Assembly: GCF_029207735.1 (NCBI RefSeq)
Contig: NZ_CP104395.1
Location: forward strand, 1-64,000
DNA from: Candidatus Nanohalococcus occultus
Lineage (GTDB): Archaea > Nanohalarchaeota > Nanosalinia > Nanosalinales > Nanosalinaceae
DNA: 64,000 nucleotides
Direction of reading: 5' to 3'
Shown piece by piece: positions 1-36,388 of this stretch. The position numbers and the translations under genes are program-made. The notes under the pieces are model-generated. The model was given only the letters and a program-made list of their open reading frames with translations, was not told where the DNA came from and searched no databases. Numbering within the stretch: the first letter of the stretch is position 1; each line of letters opens with the position of its first letter.

Positions 1-60
1 ATAGAAATCAGGGGGTGGGTGGGTCGGACCCTTGTTTCATCTGCGGAGGTATTATAAGCC
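1..60. promoter_or_regulatory. G-rich segment upstream of orc1, possible origin element
   Basis: The leading 60 bases hold a G-rich run (positions 11-27) next to a segment whose reverse strand reads GAAACAAGGG. This resembles the core plus G-string of archaeal origin recognition boxes, which often lie directly upstream of orc1/cdc6. Only one partial element is visible because the window begins here, so an origin call is inference. Confidence 0.25.
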
Positions 61-1320
61 TTGGTTTCAAGTAGAAACTTTACAGTGGCTCCAGACAACT
101 CGAGTAAAGAAGTAAGTTTGAAAGGCGATCTCAAGTCGCGTTTCTCTAACTACATGGAAAAAGACTCCGTGTTCGAAAACAAAGATGCTTTAACTACTAA
201 CTGGAGACCTGAACGCATTCTTCACAGGGATGAAAAAATCAACAACTTAGCATCTATATTAGCGCCTTCGCTGAAAGGAGAGGATCCTTCAAACGTCTTT
301 ATCTATGGCAGCGTTGGCACAGGGAAGACGTTAATTACAAAACACGTCACCTCGGAGCTTCAGGATGTAGCAGAGGAACAGGAAGTCGATCTTAACATTG
401 TATACATTAACTGTAAGATGAAGAAGGTCGCAGACACCGAGTACAGACTACTCGCAAAGCTATGTGAGCAGTTAGGTAAGGAGGTTCCTTCAACAGGCCT
501 GCCAACCGATGAGGTCTACAACAGGTTCTTCGAAGCACTTCAGAACCAGAAAGGAGTTGTCATTATCGCACTGGATGAGATCGATGCTCTGGTAAAGAAG
601 GTCGGCGATGAGTTCCTTTATAACTTAACAAGAATCAACGATGATCTTAGAGAGACAAAGGTCTCTATTTTAGGGATTTCAAACGATCTTAACTTCACAG
701 AATACATGGACTCGCGTGTAAAATCATCGCTGAGTGAGGAAGAGATTATTTTCTCGCCTTATAACGCGATCGAGTTAAGAGAGATACTACAGGAACGGAC
801 GGAGAGAGGCTTCGTAGAAGACGCTCTAGTTGATGGAGTTATTTCCAAGTGTTCGGCTCTAGCAGCTCAGGAACACGGAGATGCCCGCCGCGCACTGGAT
901 CTTATCCGTGTGGCAGGTGAGCTGGCTGAGAGAAGCTCGGAAGAGGAGGTAAGGAAAAAACACGTCGATAAGGCCCAGGAGAAAATCGAGCGCGATAGAG
1001 TGGTCGAGACCGTAGAGTCCCAGCCTAAACACTCCAAGATCGTACTTTACACCATCTTGGATATGGCAGAGGACGATGAGGAGGTCGCTACAGGCGATGT
1101 CTACTCCGAGTACAAACAGTGGTGTGGGGAGATAGATGTTTCACCGCTCACTCAGAGAAGGGTAAGTGGTTTGATCTCCGAGCTGGATATGCTTGGAGTT
1201 ATCAACGCTAATGTTATCTCGAAGGGGCGTTACGGGAGGACGCGCCAGATATCTGTGGACTTATCCGAATCGATTAGAGCGCAGATCGAGAACATGATAG
1301 AAAACAAGTTTTACATTTAG
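61..1320 (+). CDS. orc1: Orc1/Cdc6 replication initiator (copy 1)
   Basis: Archaeal origin-recognition and helicase-loading AAA+ ATPase. Walker A GSVGTGKT lies near residue 82 and Walker B ALDEID near residue 170, followed by sensor motifs and a C-terminal winged helix (about residues 335-410). At 419 aa it has normal family length. The TTG start is preceded by a strong Shine-Dalgarno GGAGGT (45-50) with 10 nt spacing; a leaderless GTG at 85 is the alternative, because ATTATAAG at 51-58 resembles a TATA box. It is followed after 32 nt by the PolD small subunit, an arrangement common in euryarchaea. A second paralogue sits at 13.8 kb. Function is confident; the start is less so. Confidence 0.95.
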   Translation: MVSSRNFTVAPDNSSKEVSLKGDLKSRFSNYMEKDSVFENKDALTTNWRPERILHRDEKINNLASILAPSLKGEDPSNVFIYGSVGTGKTLITKHVTSELQDVAEEQEVDLNIVYINCKMKKVADTEYRLLAKLCEQLGKEVPSTGLPTDEVYNRFFEALQNQKGVVIIALDEIDALVKKVGDEFLYNLTRINDDLRETKVSILGISNDLNFTEYMDSRVKSSLSEEEIIFSPYNAIELREILQERTERGFVEDALVDGVISKCSALAAQEHGDARRALDLIRVAGELAERSSEEEVRKKHVDKAQEKIERDRVVETVESQPKHSKIVLYTILDMAEDDEEVATGDVYSEYKQWCGEIDVSPLTQRRVSGLISELDMLGVINANVISKGRYGRTRQISVDLSESIRAQIENMIENKFYI

Positions 1321-21158: not shown

Positions 21159-22109
21159 CTAGTCGTTGACGATCCCTGCGTCCTCGATTCTGAAGACTGC
21201 TTCTGCTTCAGGCATGTAAGGGCTGTCGACGAGTCGTGCGACTCTTTTGTCTTTTTTCCCTTTTCTCAGGTATATTCTTACTGCTGAGTTGTGTGCCACG
21301 ATGTGCCCTCCGATTGCTTTTGTTGGGTCTCCAAACATCTGATCAGGGTTGGACATAACCTGGTTGGTTACGACCACTGCGATGTTGTGGGAGTTAGCGA
21401 TACGCAAAAGTGTGTTCATGTGCTTGTTGAGCTTCTGCTGTCTTGGTGCTAGCTCTCCACGTCCAACGTAATCAGATCTGAACTGTGCTGTCAACGAGTC
21501 GACGATGATCAGTCCGATGTCTTCCTTCTGTGCGATGTCCTGTGCTTCATCCGCCAGTAGTACTTGGTGGTCGGAGTTGAATGCCCGTGCGACGTGGATG
21601 TTGTTCAGTACTTCTTCAGGGTCCTGTCCGTTGGCTTCTGCCATCTGTTCGATACGGTCCGGGATGAATGTGTCTTCGGTATCGATGTAGATAGCTCCTT
21701 TTCCAAGTCCGCCTTCTCCTTCCGGTAGCTGGACGTTGGTTGCGAGCTGGTGGGAAAGCTGTGTCTTTGCGCTTCCGTACTCTCCGTAGAACTCGGTGAT
21801 TGCCTGGGTTTCTACTCCGCCGCCAAGGATCTCGTCTAGATCATCGCAGTTTGTGAGAATTCTTTTCATCTCCTTGCGCTGATCGTACTTTTCCTTACCG
21901 GTCTGGAATCCGCCGATGTCGGCCTGTCGCCGCGCCGATGAAATTATCTTCTGCGCGCTGCTTTCACCTACATCCGCTTTCTCCGCTAGCTCTCCCGAGC
22001 TAAGTGTCGCAATCGACATCAGGTCGTCTAGACCTGCTTCCTGTAGTTTCTCCGCGGTTTTGCCTCCTACGCCTTTCAAGTCAGTTAAGTCTTTGTCTTC
22101 TTCAGCCAC
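21159..22109 (-). CDS. radA: RadA recombinase
   Basis: 316 aa, normal length. The N-terminal helix-hairpin-helix domain (about 1-65) is followed by the RecA-fold ATPase core. Walker B is IGLIIVDSLTAQFRSDY, and the L2-side TNQVMSNPDQMFGDPTKAIGGHIVAH is fully typical. It catalyses homologous pairing and strand exchange. The P-loop reads GEYGSAKTQ: residue 114 is Ala where the GxxxxGKT consensus has Gly. It lies 26 nt downstream of the RPA gene on the same strand, so the two may form a recombination operon. Confidence 0.96.
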   Translation of the reverse strand: MAEEDKDLTDLKGVGGKTAEKLQEAGLDDLMSIATLSSGELAEKADVGESSAQKIISSARRQADIGGFQTGKEKYDQRKEMKRILTNCDDLDEILGGGVETQAITEFYGEYGSAKTQLSHQLATNVQLPEGEGGLGKGAIYIDTEDTFIPDRIEQMAEANGQDPEEVLNNIHVARAFNSDHQVLLADEAQDIAQKEDIGLIIVDSLTAQFRSDYVGRGELAPRQQKLNKHMNTLLRIANSHNIAVVVTNQVMSNPDQMFGDPTKAIGGHIVAHNSAVRIYLRKGKKDKRVARLVDSPYMPEAEAVFRIEDAGIVND

Positions 22110-22135
22110 TGTTTAACATCTCCTTAATACTGTTT

Positions 22136-23134
22136 TTACGCTTCTAGAACGTCCAGCAGTTCGTTGATCTCTTCGCTGGCATCGAACTCGTCTAATTCGT
22201 TGACGATGATCTCGAGCTGTCCGAAGTAATCGTTGTAACGTGTACGTCCTGTGATTGTGATTTCCTTGCCTAAAGCGTTTTCCGCTGAGGCCTCGATCTT
22301 CTTCTGTTTGCCGGACTTTTCGGTTTCCTCATCGACGTCCAGAAGTTTCCGTGCCTGCTCTCTGAAGAACACGCATCGGGTGTTTCCTGTGCCGTCGTCG
22401 ATTACCGCTGATACTGCTAGCCGGGTCTCCGGTTCGTCTACGACTTCGCCCTCATCTGTTTCGTAGTCTCCATCGTCGTTTGCCCTGACGGTATCGCCTG
22501 TATCAGGATCTACGCGGTAGAAAGGATTTGAAGTGTATACTGCGACTACGATCCCGTTTGTTATGTAGTTTGCGTTCTCGTCTTTGATGTCTTTGATCTC
22601 TGCTTTCTCTGCGTCTCCGCCGCTTCCACCGGTTTCGACTTCCGGTACTTCATCGTCGTCGGCCATGGCTACTTGAGCTTCGTCTCCAAGTCTTAGCTCT
22701 GCGTTCCCGCGGTTGTCCTCTACGGTGTAGCATCCGCTGATCTTTACGGCATCGCCCTCGTTTACTTTTTCTGCGATCTGTGTCTGTTCATCCCAGAGGG
22801 TTACCCGGATTGATCCGGTTTCATCTGCGATTACAATGTTCTGTACTTTTCCTTCCTCACCGTCGTCTCTGTCGAATGTGTTAGGGTCCAGTACTGCGGT
22901 GACTCGGCCTTTGATGCTTACCTTCCGCATCTCAGGTACTATGTTTTCGATCTTCAGGTCGTTGCTGGCTTCGCTTAGCTGTACTCCGTGTTCTTTAGCT
23001 ACTAAGTGTACTGCTCCTTCTTCACTTACCATTCCGGAGAACTCTTCCATCTTCTCCTCTACTTTTTCTTTAATATCGTCTTCTGAAAGGTCGGATTCCT
23101 CCGCTGTTTTCTCGATTAAACCGTCAACGTCCAT
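22136..23134 (-). CDS. Replication protein A-like single-strand DNA-binding protein
   Basis: 332 aa with an N-terminal helical segment and at least two OB folds. The first covers about residues 65-165 (VSIKGRVTAVLDPNTFDRDDGEEG, IRVTLWDEQTQIAEKVNEGDAVKISG). The second covers about 185-310 (RLAVSAVIDDGTGNTRCVFF, GKEITITGRTRYNDYFGQLE). It is the euryarchaeal RPA type that coats single-stranded DNA in replication and repair. It lies just upstream of radA on the same strand, fitting a shared pathway. The linker between OB folds is very acidic. Confidence 0.92.
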   Translation of the reverse strand: MDVDGLIEKTAEESDLSEDDIKEKVEEKMEEFSGMVSEEGAVHLVAKEHGVQLSEASNDLKIENIVPEMRKVSIKGRVTAVLDPNTFDRDDGEEGKVQNIVIADETGSIRVTLWDEQTQIAEKVNEGDAVKISGCYTVEDNRGNAELRLGDEAQVAMADDDEVPEVETGGSGGDAEKAEIKDIKDENANYITNGIVVAVYTSNPFYRVDPDTGDTVRANDDGDYETDEGEVVDEPETRLAVSAVIDDGTGNTRCVFFREQARKLLDVDEETEKSGKQKKIEASAENALGKEITITGRTRYNDYFGQLEIIVNELDEFDASEEINELLDVLEA

Positions 23135-23236
23135 GTTCTCGAAAGGGTATGAAATCCTTAAATCAGTGGTTGAAGTCCGGTACTTAGGTGTAGAAAAACC
23201 GGGTTCAAAATAAAAATGAGTAAGTCGGAGAACGAC

Positions 23237-23434
23237 TTACCTGAGAGCGTTTCTTACGTCTTCGCCCCTGACTGTCTTCCGGTCGTCGTCTTTTGCGACC
23301 GAGATTGCCTGCTCAGAGATGTCTCCGGCGTAAGTTTCTAGTACTTCACGCAGTTCTTCTGCCGCGCCTTTGGAAACTCTCTTGCTTGTCTCCGACTTGA
23401 TTAAATCCTTCATCTTGGATGTTGAGAACTCCAT
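23237..23434 (-). CDS. Archaeal histone (copy 1)
   Basis: 65 aa, HMf-type histone fold: helix 1 TSKMKDLIKSE, loop with SKRVSKGAAEEL, the long central helix, and DRKTVRGEDVRNAL for loop 2 and helix 3. It compacts DNA as dimers or higher oligomers. A TATA-like GTTTATAATA on the minus strand (23466-23475) precedes it. It is a separate locus from the second histone at 43.2 kb; the two differ at many helix positions, so heterodimers are possible. Confidence 0.95.
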   Translation of the reverse strand: MEFSTSKMKDLIKSETSKRVSKGAAEELREVLETYAGDISEQAISVAKDDDRKTVRGEDVRNALR

Positions 23435-23642: not shown

Positions 23643-23966
23643 ATGAAGGATCACGATCTCGAAAAGCTATTTCTGAACAAGAAGCCGGTAGATCTGCTCA
23701 TACAGCTGGAAAAACACGATAATAGAAACTATGCCTCGGCTCTCTCGACCGACGCTGATGTAACTTACTCTCACACAGTCAAATGTCTCCAGAGAATGGA
23801 GCGGTATGGCCTGGTTGAGTTCGAACGCAAGGGCAGGAAAAAGGAGATCAAGCTCACAGATCAAGGCGACCAGATCGCAGAGAATCTCTTCGACCTCATG
23901 AAAGCTATGACAGGAGACGAAGAAACCGAGGACGAAGACTCTGTTATAGAAGATTCCTCGCTGTAA
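23643..23966 (+). CDS. Winged-helix DNA-binding protein (paralogue A)
   Basis: 107 aa. MarR-like winged helix: a helix with LFLNKKPVDLLIQL, recognition region VTYSHTVKCLQRMERYGLVEF, and wing RKGRKKEIKLTDQGDQIAENL. It is paralogous to the genes at 35.5 and 36.0 kb (shared K-KP, Y-HTVK, KQGRKK-LT motifs). CTAATAAAC (23609-23617) sits about 28 nt upstream, so the ATG is probably leaderless. It lies next to the dyad array at 24.07-25.04 kb and could bind it, but that is untested. Confidence 0.85.
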   Translation: MKDHDLEKLFLNKKPVDLLIQLEKHDNRNYASALSTDADVTYSHTVKCLQRMERYGLVEFERKGRKKEIKLTDQGDQIAENLFDLMKAMTGDEETEDEDSVIEDSSL

Positions 23967-24182
23967 ACTCTCTGCCTGCTTCAAAACCTTCTTTTTCTTT
24001 CCACATACCTCTCATTTTCTAGTTCCAGGCTGTTTGTGCGCCATGCGTTCTCACATTCTCACAACACATGTTGTTCTTATCTTGTGAACATTCTTTCCTT
24101 TTAACATCCTTTTGTTTTCATTGACGGGTTAATAGAACTACAAAAGAGTGTTCTTTCCTGGTGAACAACGCCCTTATGTTTG

Positions 24183-24190
24183 TTAATATA
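24183..24190 (+). promoter_or_regulatory. TATA box of the 74-aa gene within the dyad array
   Basis: TTAATATA is centred about 24-26 nt before a GTG at 24210, fitting a leaderless start. The dyad at 24146-24170 is 12 bp further upstream, a position where a bound protein could activate or block the promoter. Confidence 0.5.
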
Positions 24191-24209
24191 CGTACCTAGA
24201 GCCTTTGAT

Positions 24210-24434
24210 GTGAGAGTAACCAGGATTCAAGACGACGGCAAGAAGTTCATTCTACATGGCGAAGAGGCTCTCTACGGTCGTCTAGAGGAGGTATTTGACC
24301 AGATAGGTCTAGGTATTTCTGTCACTGAGTCCGATACAGGTGTCGCAAACATAATCTATACGGAGAACAACCGGGATATCGTCCTCAGCCTGCTTAGAGA
24401 TCATACTGAAGGCGTTATGAGAAACAAGTCGTGA
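24210..24434 (+). CDS. Small uncharacterised protein inside the dyad array
   Basis: 74 aa from the leaderless GTG at 24210; an in-frame TTG at 24180 overlaps the TATA box and is less likely. Acidic, with alternating strands and helices (VRVTRIQDDGKKFILHG, LYGRLEEVFDQIGLGISVTES, ANIIYTENNRDIVLSLLRDH), which looks like a small alpha/beta domain. No family is recognised. It is bracketed by dyads of the 24-25 kb array, so it is probably controlled by, or acts with, the protein that binds them. Confidence 0.6.
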   Translation: MRVTRIQDDGKKFILHGEEALYGRLEEVFDQIGLGISVTESDTGVANIIYTENNRDIVLSLLRDHTEGVMRNKS

Positions 24435-25168
24435 GTGTTCGACCAATTTACACACTCTTCTGACTCAGGGGCCTCTGAACAAGGTGTGAGGAAGCCTGCT
24501 CGAAAAACTCTCATAACAAACCTTCTTTATCGGAAAATACTGAAGTTGTGGTTTCTGGATACTTCTTGGGGAATTGGCTTGGGGTCGCGGCAGAGATCTA
24601 CTCTATAATAAAGGAGGTTTAACTTCGGTCTGTGAAACTACCTGATCGATTTTCCCTAGTTGGGATAAACCTTCTTTGTTATGGCTGTTTTTCGGTATTT
24701 GGCCTCAATCTCTATGAGTGTTCGACTGTTTTGAACACTCTTGGTGTGGTGGGGTCGGTCTCCTAGCGAAGGACTCTCTCAGGAAGAGGCCAGATTGGTT
24801 CTATTCGCCAAGCTGGGGCTGGCTTTCCGTCCAATTTAACTGTCACAGAGAGCAAGACGGCGCCAATATCTGAAAGCAAGATTATGTGTCTCTAGAGGCG
24901 CTGTTCGTAGAGTGTTCGGTAAGCTTTAACACTCGTTAGTTTTCTTTATCATCGCTTGGTGAAATCATAAGGTACTAAAAACAGTAGAGTGTTCAATAGT
25001 TGTGAACACTATAATGTTCGGTAGGGTCGAACAGTCTCAGTTCGTATGTGAGCAACAGCAGGTCTAAATGAGGTATTTGGCTCCAGAATCTTAGAGAGAT
25101 ACTTCTCGAGATCGATCCTACGGCCTGGCTGGGCATGTAAGTTAAATCCTCGGAGCCAAGCTGTGTGT
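24435..25168. other. Gene-poor 730-bp region of the dyad array
   Basis: No convincing coding frame on either strand. Besides five of the seven dyads it holds AAACCTTCTTT at 24518-24528 and 24667-24677, an inverted near-copy (TAAAGGAGGTTTA, 24609-24621), and an additional copy outside at 23984-23994. A replication, partition or regulatory locus would fit; nothing diagnostic of a known RNA was found. Confidence 0.5.
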
Positions 25169-25852: not shown

Positions 25853-27190
25853 GTGTTACTATATAATGACAACTTTGTGAACTTCCGTAAATCGTTGTAT
25901 AAAAAGAGAGACGGTCAGGCTAAGGGGACTTCTGTCTTCATGGGGACTCGGTTTACCGGCTTTCCGAAAAAAGACTGGTATGGGGAGACCAACACCATAG
26001 GGGGCGGAAGCCCGCTTAACTACAGAAGCTCGTTTATGCTCAATAAAGGTCTAACAAACCTGCTCAGGGCGGGCAAAGAAGACTTCGAGATAGAGGAAGG
26101 GTCTTTACACATAAACAACCGGAGTATCGAGGAGATAAACGACTTTCTAAACGGCGAAGGTAACGGCGATCTAACTTTGATCAACACTGGGCCGTTTAAC
26201 AGCGAAATAGAAGACAAGGCCGGCGGAGACAGAGAATCACATCTTAACTACTTCGAGTTAATGATGGATCAAGGCATGAAGGTCGTAAACACGCCTAAGA
26301 TCGCGAAAGCTTGTGGAGACAAGCGTATAACATACAGTTTGTTTGAGGAACAGAAGGAAAACAGTCTTCCATGGTACAACCTTGATCACTATCTTTCCGG
26401 TCCAGGGATCGCAGGGCTAAAAAATGACTTCAAACGTTTCAAAGACAAATATAACTTCGAGGACGGAGAGAACGGAGATGTACCGGTTGTGGCCAAGCCG
26501 GCTAATGGCAGTGGCGGAGATGAAATACTTTTCACAACGATGGATTCGTTTATCAGCGGTGCTGAAAGGAAAGGCTCGATACGGAAACTTTTCGCATCTG
26601 AAGGCTATAATCCGAATGGAAGAGTTCTACAGATGTCAGTTCCTGCGGTATATGATCAGCGGATAATTGCGACCGACGGCGTAATTGAGACTGCCGAAAC
26701 GCGTATTGGCGAAGGAGATCTCCACAACTTACAGGGAGGAGGTAGAGCAATACCTGTCAAGAGAGATGAACTACAGGAGGGGGCTGTAAATATGGTGCAG
26801 GATTACTCGAAAGCTCTCTTACAGGGACTCGGTGTTCATGAAAACGCAGGGTCGTTCATAGGATGGGATGCTCTGGGATTCGACCTTGAAAGCGAGAAGC
26901 TCGATGGCTTCCCGGATTACAAACGTTTTTTGCGGGAAAATGTAGCTCATGAAGATTACGCCGTCGAGCATGAAGGCCAAACAGTTTATCTGGTTCCTGG
27001 AGAGGCCAATGATTCGCCGGGATCAAAGATTGACGGTGTTAACTCGGCTCACCCTGAACAAAACTCAGCTCTAGCTTTGATGAAGTTTGCCGATGATCTC
27101 AGCAGAGGTCAGGTTCACGACCCTTACGAGGCTGAACAACTAGCTCCAGTTTACAGACATATTGTGAACGATCATTTCAGAGACATGTAG
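25853..27190 (+). CDS. ATP-grasp ligase-like protein
   Basis: About 445 aa. ATP-grasp features: FELMMDQGMKVVNTPKIAKACGDK (pre-ATP-grasp to A-loop, about residues 130-155), VPVVAKPANGSGGDEIL (glycine-rich loop, about 210), YDQRIIATDGVIETAETRIGEGDLHNL (RimK-like RxxxxxG segment) and a late acidic YLVPGEANDSPG (metal-binding E/N). Family members join carboxylates to amines; the substrate is unknown. TATATAA at 25860-25866 lies inside the first codons, so the start may be further downstream (GTG 25877 or TTG 25895). It directly precedes the secreted-protein module. Confidence 0.7.
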   Translation: MLLYNDNFVNFRKSLYKKRDGQAKGTSVFMGTRFTGFPKKDWYGETNTIGGGSPLNYRSSFMLNKGLTNLLRAGKEDFEIEEGSLHINNRSIEEINDFLNGEGNGDLTLINTGPFNSEIEDKAGGDRESHLNYFELMMDQGMKVVNTPKIAKACGDKRITYSLFEEQKENSLPWYNLDHYLSGPGIAGLKNDFKRFKDKYNFEDGENGDVPVVAKPANGSGGDEILFTTMDSFISGAERKGSIRKLFASEGYNPNGRVLQMSVPAVYDQRIIATDGVIETAETRIGEGDLHNLQGGGRAIPVKRDELQEGAVNMVQDYSKALLQGLGVHENAGSFIGWDALGFDLESEKLDGFPDYKRFLRENVAHEDYAVEHEGQTVYLVPGEANDSPGSKIDGVNSAHPEQNSALALMKFADDLSRGQVHDPYEAEQLAPVYRHIVNDHFRDM

Positions 27191-27257: not shown

Positions 27258-28340
27258 ATGACAGAAGATTCAATAAACCGCGACGGTTCAATAGAGGACG
27301 TCTCGGCAATGTTAGGTGGGGATGGAAGCGCAAAAACGGAAGACGGAACTATCGCAGCTGATGATAGCTCGATGTCATCCGACGACTCAGTGTTCACTCC
27401 TGGTTTCCCAGAGGGTTCTGGAGGATCGACAGGACGTGGAGGTCTTGGACCGAACAGCGACGATTTACCGGTGCCTGCTCCCAGTGGCGACGAACCTGAA
27501 AGAGAGTTCGTTTCTCCTGAGAACTCGGACGAGTTCAGTCTAGGGTACAAAGTTGTCGGAGACAAGTCTGACTCACGACTTCCTAACTTCCTTACTGTAA
27601 CTTACGAACAGGCGAACAGCTGGTTCGATGAAGGATTAGGTTCTGATGCCTCCTACGATATAGGAATAGGGGACAAAATTAAATCTGCTGTAGCACACTT
27701 CCCGGGCGTCGGATCCGCCTCTAACTCGTCCACAGATAGAGGCATTGGGGAAACTGATAGACAAGGAAAACTAACACGCAGAGCCTTCGTTCACGGAGGT
27801 CTGGCGGCTTTAGCGGGAGCTTCCGCAGGCGTAGCATCTCAGCAGACAGGAGGTTCTCAGAATGGTCCTGAGGCACGCGATTCTGGGGGAGGAGCATCTG
27901 AAGCCGCGGGCAGCACAGCTGACGATATTTACAGGCTCCAAGATGGGGAATCCACGATCGATCTGGATATTTCTCCGAGACAGGACTACAATGAGCTTAC
28001 ATGGGGGATCCAGGAAGATGGAGACCTGATTGTAATGGATGAATCCGACCGTCAAATCTGGGAGTATGAGGCAGAAGACGTTGAAGGACTTGACGTCCTT
28101 AAGGCGCTGTATCAGGGCGAGTCTAAGACGCTCCCTGAAGGCGCAGCAAAACAGATCAGCTCTGGAGAAAACTGGGAGGAAAACGACCAGTATGTTGAAG
28201 CCAGTTACTCGGAGGTCAAAGATACTCTCGTAAAAAATGGCCAGAAAAGAACAGCTGCCAACGTCTTATATGACTTCAGTGAATCAAGACTAGATGATCA
28301 ACCAGTCTACGAAGACGAAATCGAACATCTTCTTGAGTAG
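27258..28340 (+). CDS. Tat-signal protein with shared C-terminal domain (module A)
   Basis: 360 aa. A long acidic, Ser/Gly-rich N-terminal part (about 1-170) precedes a twin-arginine signal, TRRAFVHGGLAALAGASAGVA near residue 174, so the N-terminal part should stay cytoplasmic and the C-terminal 160 residues be exported. The exported part has GDLIVMDESDRQIWEYEAEDVEG, matching the LQEDGTV-D-DR-FE-EDFP pattern of the paralogues at 32.5 and 36.6 kb. Function unknown. It is followed after 11 nt by a surface repeat protein, an arrangement repeated at 32.5-33.2 kb. Confidence 0.75.
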   Translation: MTEDSINRDGSIEDVSAMLGGDGSAKTEDGTIAADDSSMSSDDSVFTPGFPEGSGGSTGRGGLGPNSDDLPVPAPSGDEPEREFVSPENSDEFSLGYKVVGDKSDSRLPNFLTVTYEQANSWFDEGLGSDASYDIGIGDKIKSAVAHFPGVGSASNSSTDRGIGETDRQGKLTRRAFVHGGLAALAGASAGVASQQTGGSQNGPEARDSGGGASEAAGSTADDIYRLQDGESTIDLDISPRQDYNELTWGIQEDGDLIVMDESDRQIWEYEAEDVEGLDVLKALYQGESKTLPEGAAKQISSGENWEENDQYVEASYSEVKDTLVKNGQKRTAANVLYDFSESRLDDQPVYEDEIEHLLE

Positions 28341-28351
28341 GTCTTGGGACG

Positions 28352-30106
28352 ATGGGAAATACAAAAATGTTGGCTCTGACAGCACTGCTCTCACTTGCGC
28401 TTATAGCGCCAGCGGCATCGATTGTGGCAGGTCCGGGCGGAGATCCATACGACTGCGGGGACTGCGATAGCGCTTACCCTACAGGCGATGACGGTTCGGA
28501 TGATGGTTCGTGGTCTGGTGGCGATACCGAGACCAATGATGGGACGGATAGTGGTGGAGCTGACACATCTGATGGTTCGGATGATGGTTCGTGGTCTGGT
28601 GATGATTCGGAGACTAATGATGGGACTGACAGTTCCGACGACGACACTGACAGTTCAACGGAGACGGAACAAGACTGGTCTGGTGATGATTCGGAGACTA
28701 ATGATGGGACAGATACTTCTAGCCCTGATTCTGGTTCGGAGGATGATGGTTCGTGGTCTGGTGATGATTCGGAGACTAATGATGGAACGGATACCTCTGA
28801 TTCCGATTCAACGGATACAGATGAAGACATAGGAACAGATGACGGCGGTTCGGACTCTACAGACGATACTTCTGAGGAAGATAGCACTGACACTTCCGGA
28901 GAGTCCGATACTGACGATGAAGCCGGCGGCAGCTCTGGAGGAGGTTCCACTGGCGGCGGATCAACTGGTGGAGGCACCGGTGACGGCGATGGAGATTCTG
29001 GTTCCGGCGACTCTGGTTCTGGAGATGGATCGACTGGAGGAGGCGATTCAGGTGATTCCAACGATGATCCGGCTGTAAGCTTTACTTTCAGCCCTTCGAA
29101 TCCGGAGCCAGGCCAGGAGGTTACGTTCACGGCTGATGCTTCGGACTCGGATGGTTCTATTCAGTCGATTGAATGGGATCTTGACGATGATGGTGCCTTC
29201 GACGATGCGACAGGTGAGACCGCTAAGAGAAGCTTTAGCTCTGAAGGTGACTACAAGGTCACTGTCCGTGCTACCGACGATGACGGTGCGGAAAATACAA
29301 TCTCTGATACAGTCATGGTTAGAGCTGACAGCGGTTCAGATAGCGATGACGACGATGAAGATGACGGTGATTCCAGCGGAGGATCCGGTGGCGGCTCAGT
29401 TGGCGGCGGCGAGATTATAATCGGCAGCCCCGAGCCGTCCATGAATGTGGCTCTCTCAAGTGATACGGTTGAGTACAACCAGCCTGTAACTGTCTCAGGT
29501 AGCTTCGAGAACGTTGATTCGCCTAGACAGGTAACAGTCTACTTCGGCGGGCAGCAGGTCTCGACACTTAGCTCGGCGGATACTTTTTCAACCAGCTTCG
29601 AGGCCAACATTGTTGGAGAAAACGAGGTCCGGGTTGTATCCGGCGAACTAGAAAAGACAATGGTTCTAAATGTCAATCCAGCCGTAAGAATTGACGGAAT
29701 CAACGCTCAGACATTTCTCCGACCTTCGGAAAGACATGAGGTGTGTGTGGAGATAACAGCTCCATCAAGCACCGAAGTACAGCTTTACGAGAACGATGAA
29801 CTAGTAGGAACCAGAAACACCGGCGATGTCGCATGTTTCACACGGATCGCACCCGAAGACAGTAACTCAGTTACATACCGAGCTGTAGCAACTTCAGGCT
29901 CGGCAAGGGATGTGGAGGAAAAAACTATCTCGGTCATACCTGAGGAAACAGGGACTCAGCCGAGCAACACGCCAACTGGAGGTTTCTTCTCGGAGACGTC
30001 CAATATCGCGCTCTCAATAGCCGCCATACTGCTAGCTATCTTAGCAGCAGTCGGCTACAGGAAAAGAGAGCAACTCAAAACTTACGTTTCAGGCATCAGA
30101 GCCTGA
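28352..30106 (+). CDS. Surface protein: Asp-rich repeats, PKD and Ig-like domains
   Basis: 584 aa. Sec-type signal peptide (about 1-27), four copies of a SWSGDDSETNDGTD-like repeat (about 50-145), an Asp/Ser/Gly-rich linker, and a PKD domain (about 240-323: SFTFSPSNPEPGQEVTF ... GDYKVTVRATDDDG). A Gly-rich linker follows, then two Ig-like beta domains with one Cys pair, and a C-terminal membrane anchor (about 551-570) with a basic tail. The acidic repeats may bind Ca2+. The architecture suggests an adhesin or stalk. It is paralogous to the protein at 31.45-32.48 kb. Expressed with the Tat gene 11 nt upstream. Confidence 0.8.
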   Translation: MGNTKMLALTALLSLALIAPAASIVAGPGGDPYDCGDCDSAYPTGDDGSDDGSWSGGDTETNDGTDSGGADTSDGSDDGSWSGDDSETNDGTDSSDDDTDSSTETEQDWSGDDSETNDGTDTSSPDSGSEDDGSWSGDDSETNDGTDTSDSDSTDTDEDIGTDDGGSDSTDDTSEEDSTDTSGESDTDDEAGGSSGGGSTGGGSTGGGTGDGDGDSGSGDSGSGDGSTGGGDSGDSNDDPAVSFTFSPSNPEPGQEVTFTADASDSDGSIQSIEWDLDDDGAFDDATGETAKRSFSSEGDYKVTVRATDDDGAENTISDTVMVRADSGSDSDDDDEDDGDSSGGSGGGSVGGGEIIIGSPEPSMNVALSSDTVEYNQPVTVSGSFENVDSPRQVTVYFGGQQVSTLSSADTFSTSFEANIVGENEVRVVSGELEKTMVLNVNPAVRIDGINAQTFLRPSERHEVCVEITAPSSTEVQLYENDELVGTRNTGDVACFTRIAPEDSNSVTYRAVATSGSARDVEEKTISVIPEETGTQPSNTPTGGFFSETSNIALSIAAILLAILAAVGYRKREQLKTYVSGIRA

Positions 30107-35504: not shown

Positions 35505-35831
35505 ATGATAGACAATAGTTCGGAAATACAGAAACTTTTCCTGAAAGAAAAACCTGCGCGAGCTTTAGTAGCTCTCAGACAGTCCCGTGAGGAAATGTAT
35601 CTCAGACTGGTCTCGAAGAAAATCGACTGTACCTACGCTCACACTGTAAAGATAATAGCTATGATGAAAGAGCATGGACTTGTAAAAGTGCGAAAACAGG
35701 GCAGAAAAAAGATCTTAGAGCTGACTGAAGACGGAGAGCGTTATGCCGACTGCCTCGTAAGCATGCAGGATATCGAGCGAGGAATGCGCTTCGACATCAA
35801 CGTCGATAGAGAACTCGCACAAAACGCTTAA
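35505..35831 (+). CDS. Winged-helix DNA-binding protein (paralogue B)
   Basis: 108 aa with the same pattern as the gene at 23.6 kb: LFLKEKPARALVAL, TYAHTVKIIAMMKEHGLVKV and RKQGRKKILELTEDGERYA. It is MarR-like, probably dimeric. The short acidic C-terminal tail is unlike the other paralogues. It is next to paralogue C, so the two look like a local duplication. A hairpin at 35846-35865 (CGTGGC/GCCACG) follows and may terminate its transcript. Confidence 0.82.
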   Translation: MIDNSSEIQKLFLKEKPARALVALRQSREEMYLRLVSKKIDCTYAHTVKIIAMMKEHGLVKVRKQGRKKILELTEDGERYADCLVSMQDIERGMRFDINVDRELAQNA

Positions 35832-36028: not shown

Positions 36029-36388
36029 ATGGAGCCAACGCACAAGACGCCTACAGAAATTTTCGTCAAAGAAAAGCCTGTTATGGCGCTTTTAGTGATT
36101 TATGAAGCAGAATCCGAGATATACCCGAGTAAAGTCTCCAAAGCTATAGACTCAACTTACTCTCACACTGTGAAGATAATTTCAAAGATGGAAGAGCAAG
36201 GAATAGTTGAGACTGAAAAACAAGGCAGAAAACGACTTTTGAAGCTCACAGAGCTGGGCAACTCGTACGCAGAGATACTTCTGAAACTAGTGGACTTAGA
36301 AGACGGTTTTCCTTACAGAACACAGCTAGGGAGATCGTACGGGTTTTTCAGCAAGAAAGATTCTGGATCAGAGAACTTTGCGGGATAG
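36029..36388 (+). CDS. Winged-helix DNA-binding protein (paralogue C)
   Basis: 119 aa from the ATG at 36029. This start is preferred over the ATG at 35990 because GAGGT lies 8 nt upstream and it matches the N-terminal length of the paralogues; CTTATATG at 35965-35972 could drive either. The core (IFVKEKPVMALLVI, STYSHTVKIISKMEEQGIVET, KQGRKRLLKLTELG) is clearly the same family as 23.6 and 35.5 kb. The C-terminus (residues 88-119) is unique. It precedes the third Tat paralogue by 180 nt. Confidence 0.8.
   Translation: MEPTHKTPTEIFVKEKPVMALLVIYEAESEIYPSKVSKAIDSTYSHTVKIISKMEEQGIVETEKQGRKRLLKLTELGNSYAEILLKLVDLEDGFPYRTQLGRSYGFFSKKDSGSENFAG

Follow-up and report, generated by a model that had tools for sequence, protein, structure and literature searches.

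A genome-unique array of palindromic sites beside the replication origin of Candidatus Nanohalococcus occultus is a candidate centromere-like locus

Near the replication origin of Candidatus Nanohalococcus occultus lies an array of 25-bp dyad sites that cluster nowhere else in the genome, and a similar array recurs across the order, with examples in each of the five families sampled. Because this array is unique in the genome, comprises many regularly spaced sites, sits beside the origin and has been kept while its neighbours changed, we read it as a cis-acting, origin-proximal locus that may work like parS or a centromere, or as a chromosome-organising site, and on the sequence comparisons described here we give this reading about an even chance. 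The array was identified in the window, by which we mean the whole stretch of DNA analysed, bases 1-64000 of a chromosome of 948,351 bp that is available as one contig.

An earlier note on this DNA had described seven copies of a dyad with a constant 9-bp spacer between 24069 and 25036, including one perfect copy, one abutting pair and two pairs 77 bp apart, and all of this was recovered when we scanned the window with both arms (GAGTGTTC and GAACACTC, separated by 9 bp, with 16 arm bases scored). On the left, the outer dyads at 24069..24093 (12/16 arm bases) and 24146..24170 (13/16) are separated by 77 bp, a spacing that recurs in relatives, and the second of them ends 39 bp ahead of a 74-aa open reading frame, here called S84; a very degenerate match at 24045 (10/16) is an uncertain third left copy. 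The inner left dyad at 24433..24457 (14/16) overlaps the S84 stop codon, and the inner right dyad at 24716..24740 is the perfect one (16/16). The right outer group begins with a dyad at 24910..24934 (15/16), which lies 102 bp from the outermost site and 77 bp from the dyad at 24987..25011 (15/16), the latter abutting the outermost right dyad at 25012..25036 (13/16). The earlier note had weighed the possibility that such sites occur at the density expected from composition; with up to three mismatches allowed, the window holds 8 matches against 0.38 expected, and the maximum among 100 shuffles was 3. Its description of the region as nearly gene-free does not hold, given the conserved S84 frame inside it (24210-24434), and it did not mention the conserved core that we find between the inner dyads.

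Alignment of 92 sites gave the consensus tGAGTGTTCR-N7-YGAACACTCa, so that the refined 25-bp motif reads GAGTGTTCR-N7-YGAACACTC. The motif is palindromic, with a conserved purine following each arm, a position that lies outside the search query. Across 22 related arrays the commonest spacer was 9 bp, at 88 sites, followed by 7 bp at 14 and 5 bp at 7. Separately, the segment between the two left outer dyads of the window (24094-24145) is similar in several relatives (GAACATTC..TTTTAA..GTTAAT) and may be a promoter or an additional element.

Within the window's family (f1), the same dyad spacings recur from array to array, namely 25 bp (9 times), 76-77 bp (13) and 101-102 bp (11), which places the sites of an outer group at offsets of 0, 25 and 102. 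The window has 24910/24987/25012 as its right outer group and 24069/24146 as its left. A complete outer group at each end is not seen in every array, in part because some contigs stop short. Separated by about 250-295 bp in most f1 genomes, the two inner dyads flank a 200-bp intergenic core that carries three boxes (AATAAAGAAGGTATA) at fixed spacings of 88-92 and 60-61 bp, most commonly in the orientation < < > at 92 and 61 bp. In the window, box 1 (ACCTTCTTTAT, 24520..24530, forward strand) is flipped relative to most relatives and stands at 88 bp, as it does in one other genome, G007; box 2 (ATAAAGGAGGT, 24608..24618) is on the reverse strand, and box 3 (ACCTTCTTTGT, 24669..24679, forward strand) follows it at 61 bp. 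A further conserved segment (GTGGTTTCTGGATACTTCTTGG...GGGTCGCG...AGATC) occupies 24549..24598 on the forward strand, between boxes 1 and 2. In 11 genomes the full box pattern was seen at the array and nowhere else, once in each of ten genomes and twice in G017. Core and dyads are duplicated together in G017, about 1196 bp apart (L041, 8900-11100). Sister families keep the dyads and have a different core, which in f3-f5 carries GTNAAC-type repeats; in f4-f5 the dyads also surround a small gene, H125, that is unrelated to S84.

A genome-wide scan of the kind proposed in the earlier note found four dyads with up to two mismatches in the whole chromosome, every one of them inside the array. At three mismatches there are 14 sites, six in the array, as against 3 for a reversed control pattern. 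The same stringent search (up to two mismatches) found at least one dyad in 25/28 genomes of the order, comprising 18/19 in the window's family and 7/9 in the others; outside the order, 5/32 archaea have such a dyad and 6/32 have the reversed control, so that its occurrence there is no more than chance. Four assemblies, all in several contigs (G005, G025, G027 and G004), yielded no good dyad array. Exact matching against 257 Gb of other genomes returned 20 stretches, among which the sole one with two sites comes from a nanohaloarchaeal relative. Viral carriage of the array was considered and rejected, as two viral contigs have a single site each and no cluster. Genome-unique clustering, which the earlier note had named as support for an origin or segregation site, and an order-wide array support a putative dimeric binding protein at an origin- or partition-type locus in preference to a genome-wide regulon.

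The genes around the array are conserved in part. RadA, RPA and histone genes (21159..23434, reverse strand) form its left flank in the window and adjoin it in most genomes whose neighbourhoods were fetched, with RadA and RPA at 17/22 arrays. Between these genes and the dyads lies the usual left neighbour, a forward-strand gene (23643..23966) for a 107-aa winged-helix protein of the AspA/AF_1382-like type, whose profile matches are to AF_1382 (3e-15) and to AspA of pNOB8 (E=2e-5), the latter a weak resemblance common to MarR-like regulators. This protein, related in sequence to the plasmid segregation protein AspA, is our first candidate for the dyad binder, and its gene lies within 2.5 kb of 12/22 arrays. 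It cannot fill that role in all lineages, however, as the gene was not found in the complete single-contig genome G003, which keeps the dyads and gave only weak partial matches, as did G011 and G017. The copy at the array in G009 looks degenerate, and a paralogue is present elsewhere in that genome. In the window genome, two winged-helix paralogues stand in tandem at 35520-35762 and 36053-36295 of the window, and a fourth copy lies at 431912-432148 of the chromosome.

Other candidates for a universal binder fare no better. S84 (24210..24434, forward strand, GTG start, 74 aa) has no match in Pfam, NCBIfam or PDB; eight f1 genomes have it within the array, and it is confined to that family apart from one copy elsewhere (G020), and was not found in genus g2. 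H125 is found in families f2-f5 only, and a gene for a NikR-like ribbon-helix-helix protein is near seven arrays and absent within 9 kb of the others. Across the neighbourhoods of all 22 arrays there is no common gene. In genus g11, S84 has been relocated away from the array, and the arrays are also decoupled from RadA, RPA and the winged-helix gene. Genes named by eye as NikR-like ribbon-helix-helix, VOC-family-like and DnaK/DnaJ-like recur on the opposite side of the array in several relatives (L034, L035, L036, L037, L038, L039 and L040). To the right in the window, a 445-aa frame with no Pfam match (25853-27190) has stretches that left an impression of ATP-grasp ligases, and 27258-30106 holds a 360-aa frame, likewise unmatched in Pfam, with a PKD-domain protein after it; both of the latter have relatives beside the array in G010 and G016. 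As for partition genes, no parB/parA operon is present at the window array or recurs at the others, and a search for ParB_N (PF02195) in ten genomes, including that of the window, gave none above cut-off and one weak sub-threshold match, in G002. The window genome encodes three ParA-superfamily ATPases, one of them below its cut-off, and since these match archaeal MinD best, no motor was identified.

Replication itself most likely starts at cdc6, with the array as its neighbour. Immediately ahead of the single Cdc6/Orc1 gene (1..1320, forward strand, open frame 58-1320) stands an inverted pair of ORB motifs, the canonical origin, of which the right ORB spans the contig junction (948347 to 16) and the left lies at about 948239. 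Nearly all relatives examined have inverted ORB pairs ahead of cdc6, and the 12 genomes that carry both features on a single contig have about 15-38 kb between the array and the gene. Fourfold-degenerate sites in sampled stretches of six genomes were used to measure GC and TA skew, with the genes of each strand treated separately. In the window genome, positive skew prevails over the first 450 kb or so and negative skew from about 500 kb onwards; these sampled stretches suggest a single replichore pair with a terminus near 450-500 kb. As a six-genome mean, the GC skew of the interval between cdc6 and the array exceeds that of the left replichore by 0.125 (95% 0.072 to 0.167) and differs from that of the right by -0.010 (95% -0.064 to 0.034); single genomes are noisier than this mean, G009 being the noisiest. 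Because the skew of the interval resembles the right side and not the left, the start is placed at cdc6/ORB, and the data suggest that in Ca. Nanohalococcus occultus and five relatives this site is the replication origin.

It is accordingly quite unlikely that the array is a replication origin, main or dormant, in which the dyads would be initiator sites and the core an unwinding region. Site groups around a core do resemble origin architecture, and the adjoining RPA, RadA and histone genes would suit such a role. Nevertheless, the dyad is unlike an ORB in sequence and has no G-string, the core in the window is not strongly AT-rich, and the strand-corrected skew of the six genomes shows no sign change at the array. 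The ORBs at cdc6 and the skew switch located there rule out the array as the main origin, and a rarely used second origin at the array is covered by the same low estimate. The earlier note had proposed an origin or a partition locus and had suggested GC skew as a check for the former; that check places the switch at cdc6, away from the array, so that the origin half of the proposal falls and a partition-like locus would be the best remaining reading.

Two further explanations were weighed. The dyads might be operators in a multi-operator regulatory region controlling S84, the winged-helix gene or, in other families, H125. This has some support, in that a dyad starts 58-67 bp ahead of the S84 start codon in 6/8 array-linked copies, H125 is placed between two dyad groups in f4-f5, and winged-helix proteins of the AspA/AF_1382-like type are mostly regulators. 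However, S84 genes away from arrays (G010, G016, G018, G005 and G020) have no dyad upstream, no single gene adjoins all arrays, and the core together with the regular placing of sites across 1-2 kb is more than a promoter needs. Since the array is independent of any single gene, a simple operator reading is poorly supported, and we judge control of these genes unlikely to be its function; the same applies to the earlier note's version, in which the gene at 24210 and the prolidase were the targets, as the gene families that recur beside arrays do not include the M24 peptidase. The other explanation concerns the core, which is conserved and intergenic and could in principle encode a small non-coding RNA regulated by the flanking dyads. 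It folds better than shuffled sequences (z -2.3 in the window and -4.2 in G015), which the inverted repeats of boxes 1 and 3 would lead one to expect, but covariation is almost nil (term -0.21), most box pairs are invariant, and the flip of box 1 in the window and G007 breaks several pairs. Rfam gave no match at the gathering score, and the sub-threshold ones are at chance level. An RNA gene is thus very improbable, and we rejected it on the absent Rfam match and the little covariation.

A centromere-like or chromosome-organising locus is the reading that we prefer, and the array does persist without its usual neighbour genes in some genomes; the variation of core boxes and small genes between families counts against it. 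In such a locus, a dimeric DNA-binding protein would occupy the dyads, whose arm centres are 17 bp apart, and the regular spacing of the sites could build up a higher-order nucleoprotein complex spanning roughly 1 kb. The core boxes may be bound by a second, family-specific factor, and the complex, replicated early, could be used to move or organise sister origins. A more specific proposal, which we put forward only tentatively, is that this is a chromosomal centromere-like locus of a DPANN order and works without ParB or SegB, combining order-wide dyads and a putative dimer with an exchangeable core in which boxes and partner gene alike would have been replaced, the partner being S84 in one family and H125 in others.

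Chromosome segregation in archaea beyond the Sulfolobales is largely an open question, and a fixed DNA element beside the origin offers a bait for the missing DNA-binding protein. The array could also serve as a marker for imaging origins in the tiny symbiotic cells of nanohaloarchaea, and could be used to ask whether archaea commonly have centromere-like sites with non-ParB binders. In the literature on nanohaloarchaea, judged on titles and abstract openings and with most subscription journals outside coverage, we found nothing on chromosome segregation and no description of the array.

Bacterial parS is a 16-bp palindrome. Like the parS sites of ParABS systems, the array is a cluster of palindromes near the replication origin with few or none elsewhere; it differs in its 25-bp bipartite motif with a 9-bp spacer, in its composite layout with a core, and in the lack of a ParB_N protein above cut-off in the ten genomes searched. 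The SegB sites of Sulfolobales are likewise clustered palindromes near an archaeal origin and are bound by a dimer (PMC12284271). Both sets of archaeal palindromes are dense near an origin, with dimer binding known for SegB and presumed for the array, yet the 13-bp SegB motif is TCTAGA-S-TCTAGA and its sites are mostly within genes and spread along the chromosome (PMC12284271), whereas the array is one mostly intergenic cluster of GAGTGTTCR-N7-YGAACACTC, in a genome whose ParA-type matches are best to archaeal MinD and revealed no SegA/SegB pair. The centromere-binding protein AspA, of the Sulfolobus plasmid pNOB8, has a 23-bp palindrome as its target (PMC5120986), and in the AspA-ParB-ParA system, as near 12/22 arrays here, a small winged-helix gene accompanies a palindromic site of similar length (23 bp versus 25 bp here). 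The array, in contrast, is chromosomal, has many sites and no linked parB/parA, and its winged-helix gene is dispensable in some genomes. With Orc1/Cdc6 origins it has in common groups of sites around a core near replication genes, whereas the genuine ORB pair is at cdc6 and the dyad, which has no G-string, differs from it. None of the systems compared (ParABS, SegAB, AspA-ParBA and Orc1/Cdc6 origins) has this motif or this composite array, and the kind of element to which they belong, clustered palindromes near an origin, is already known from parS and the archaeal SegB sites (PMC12284271).
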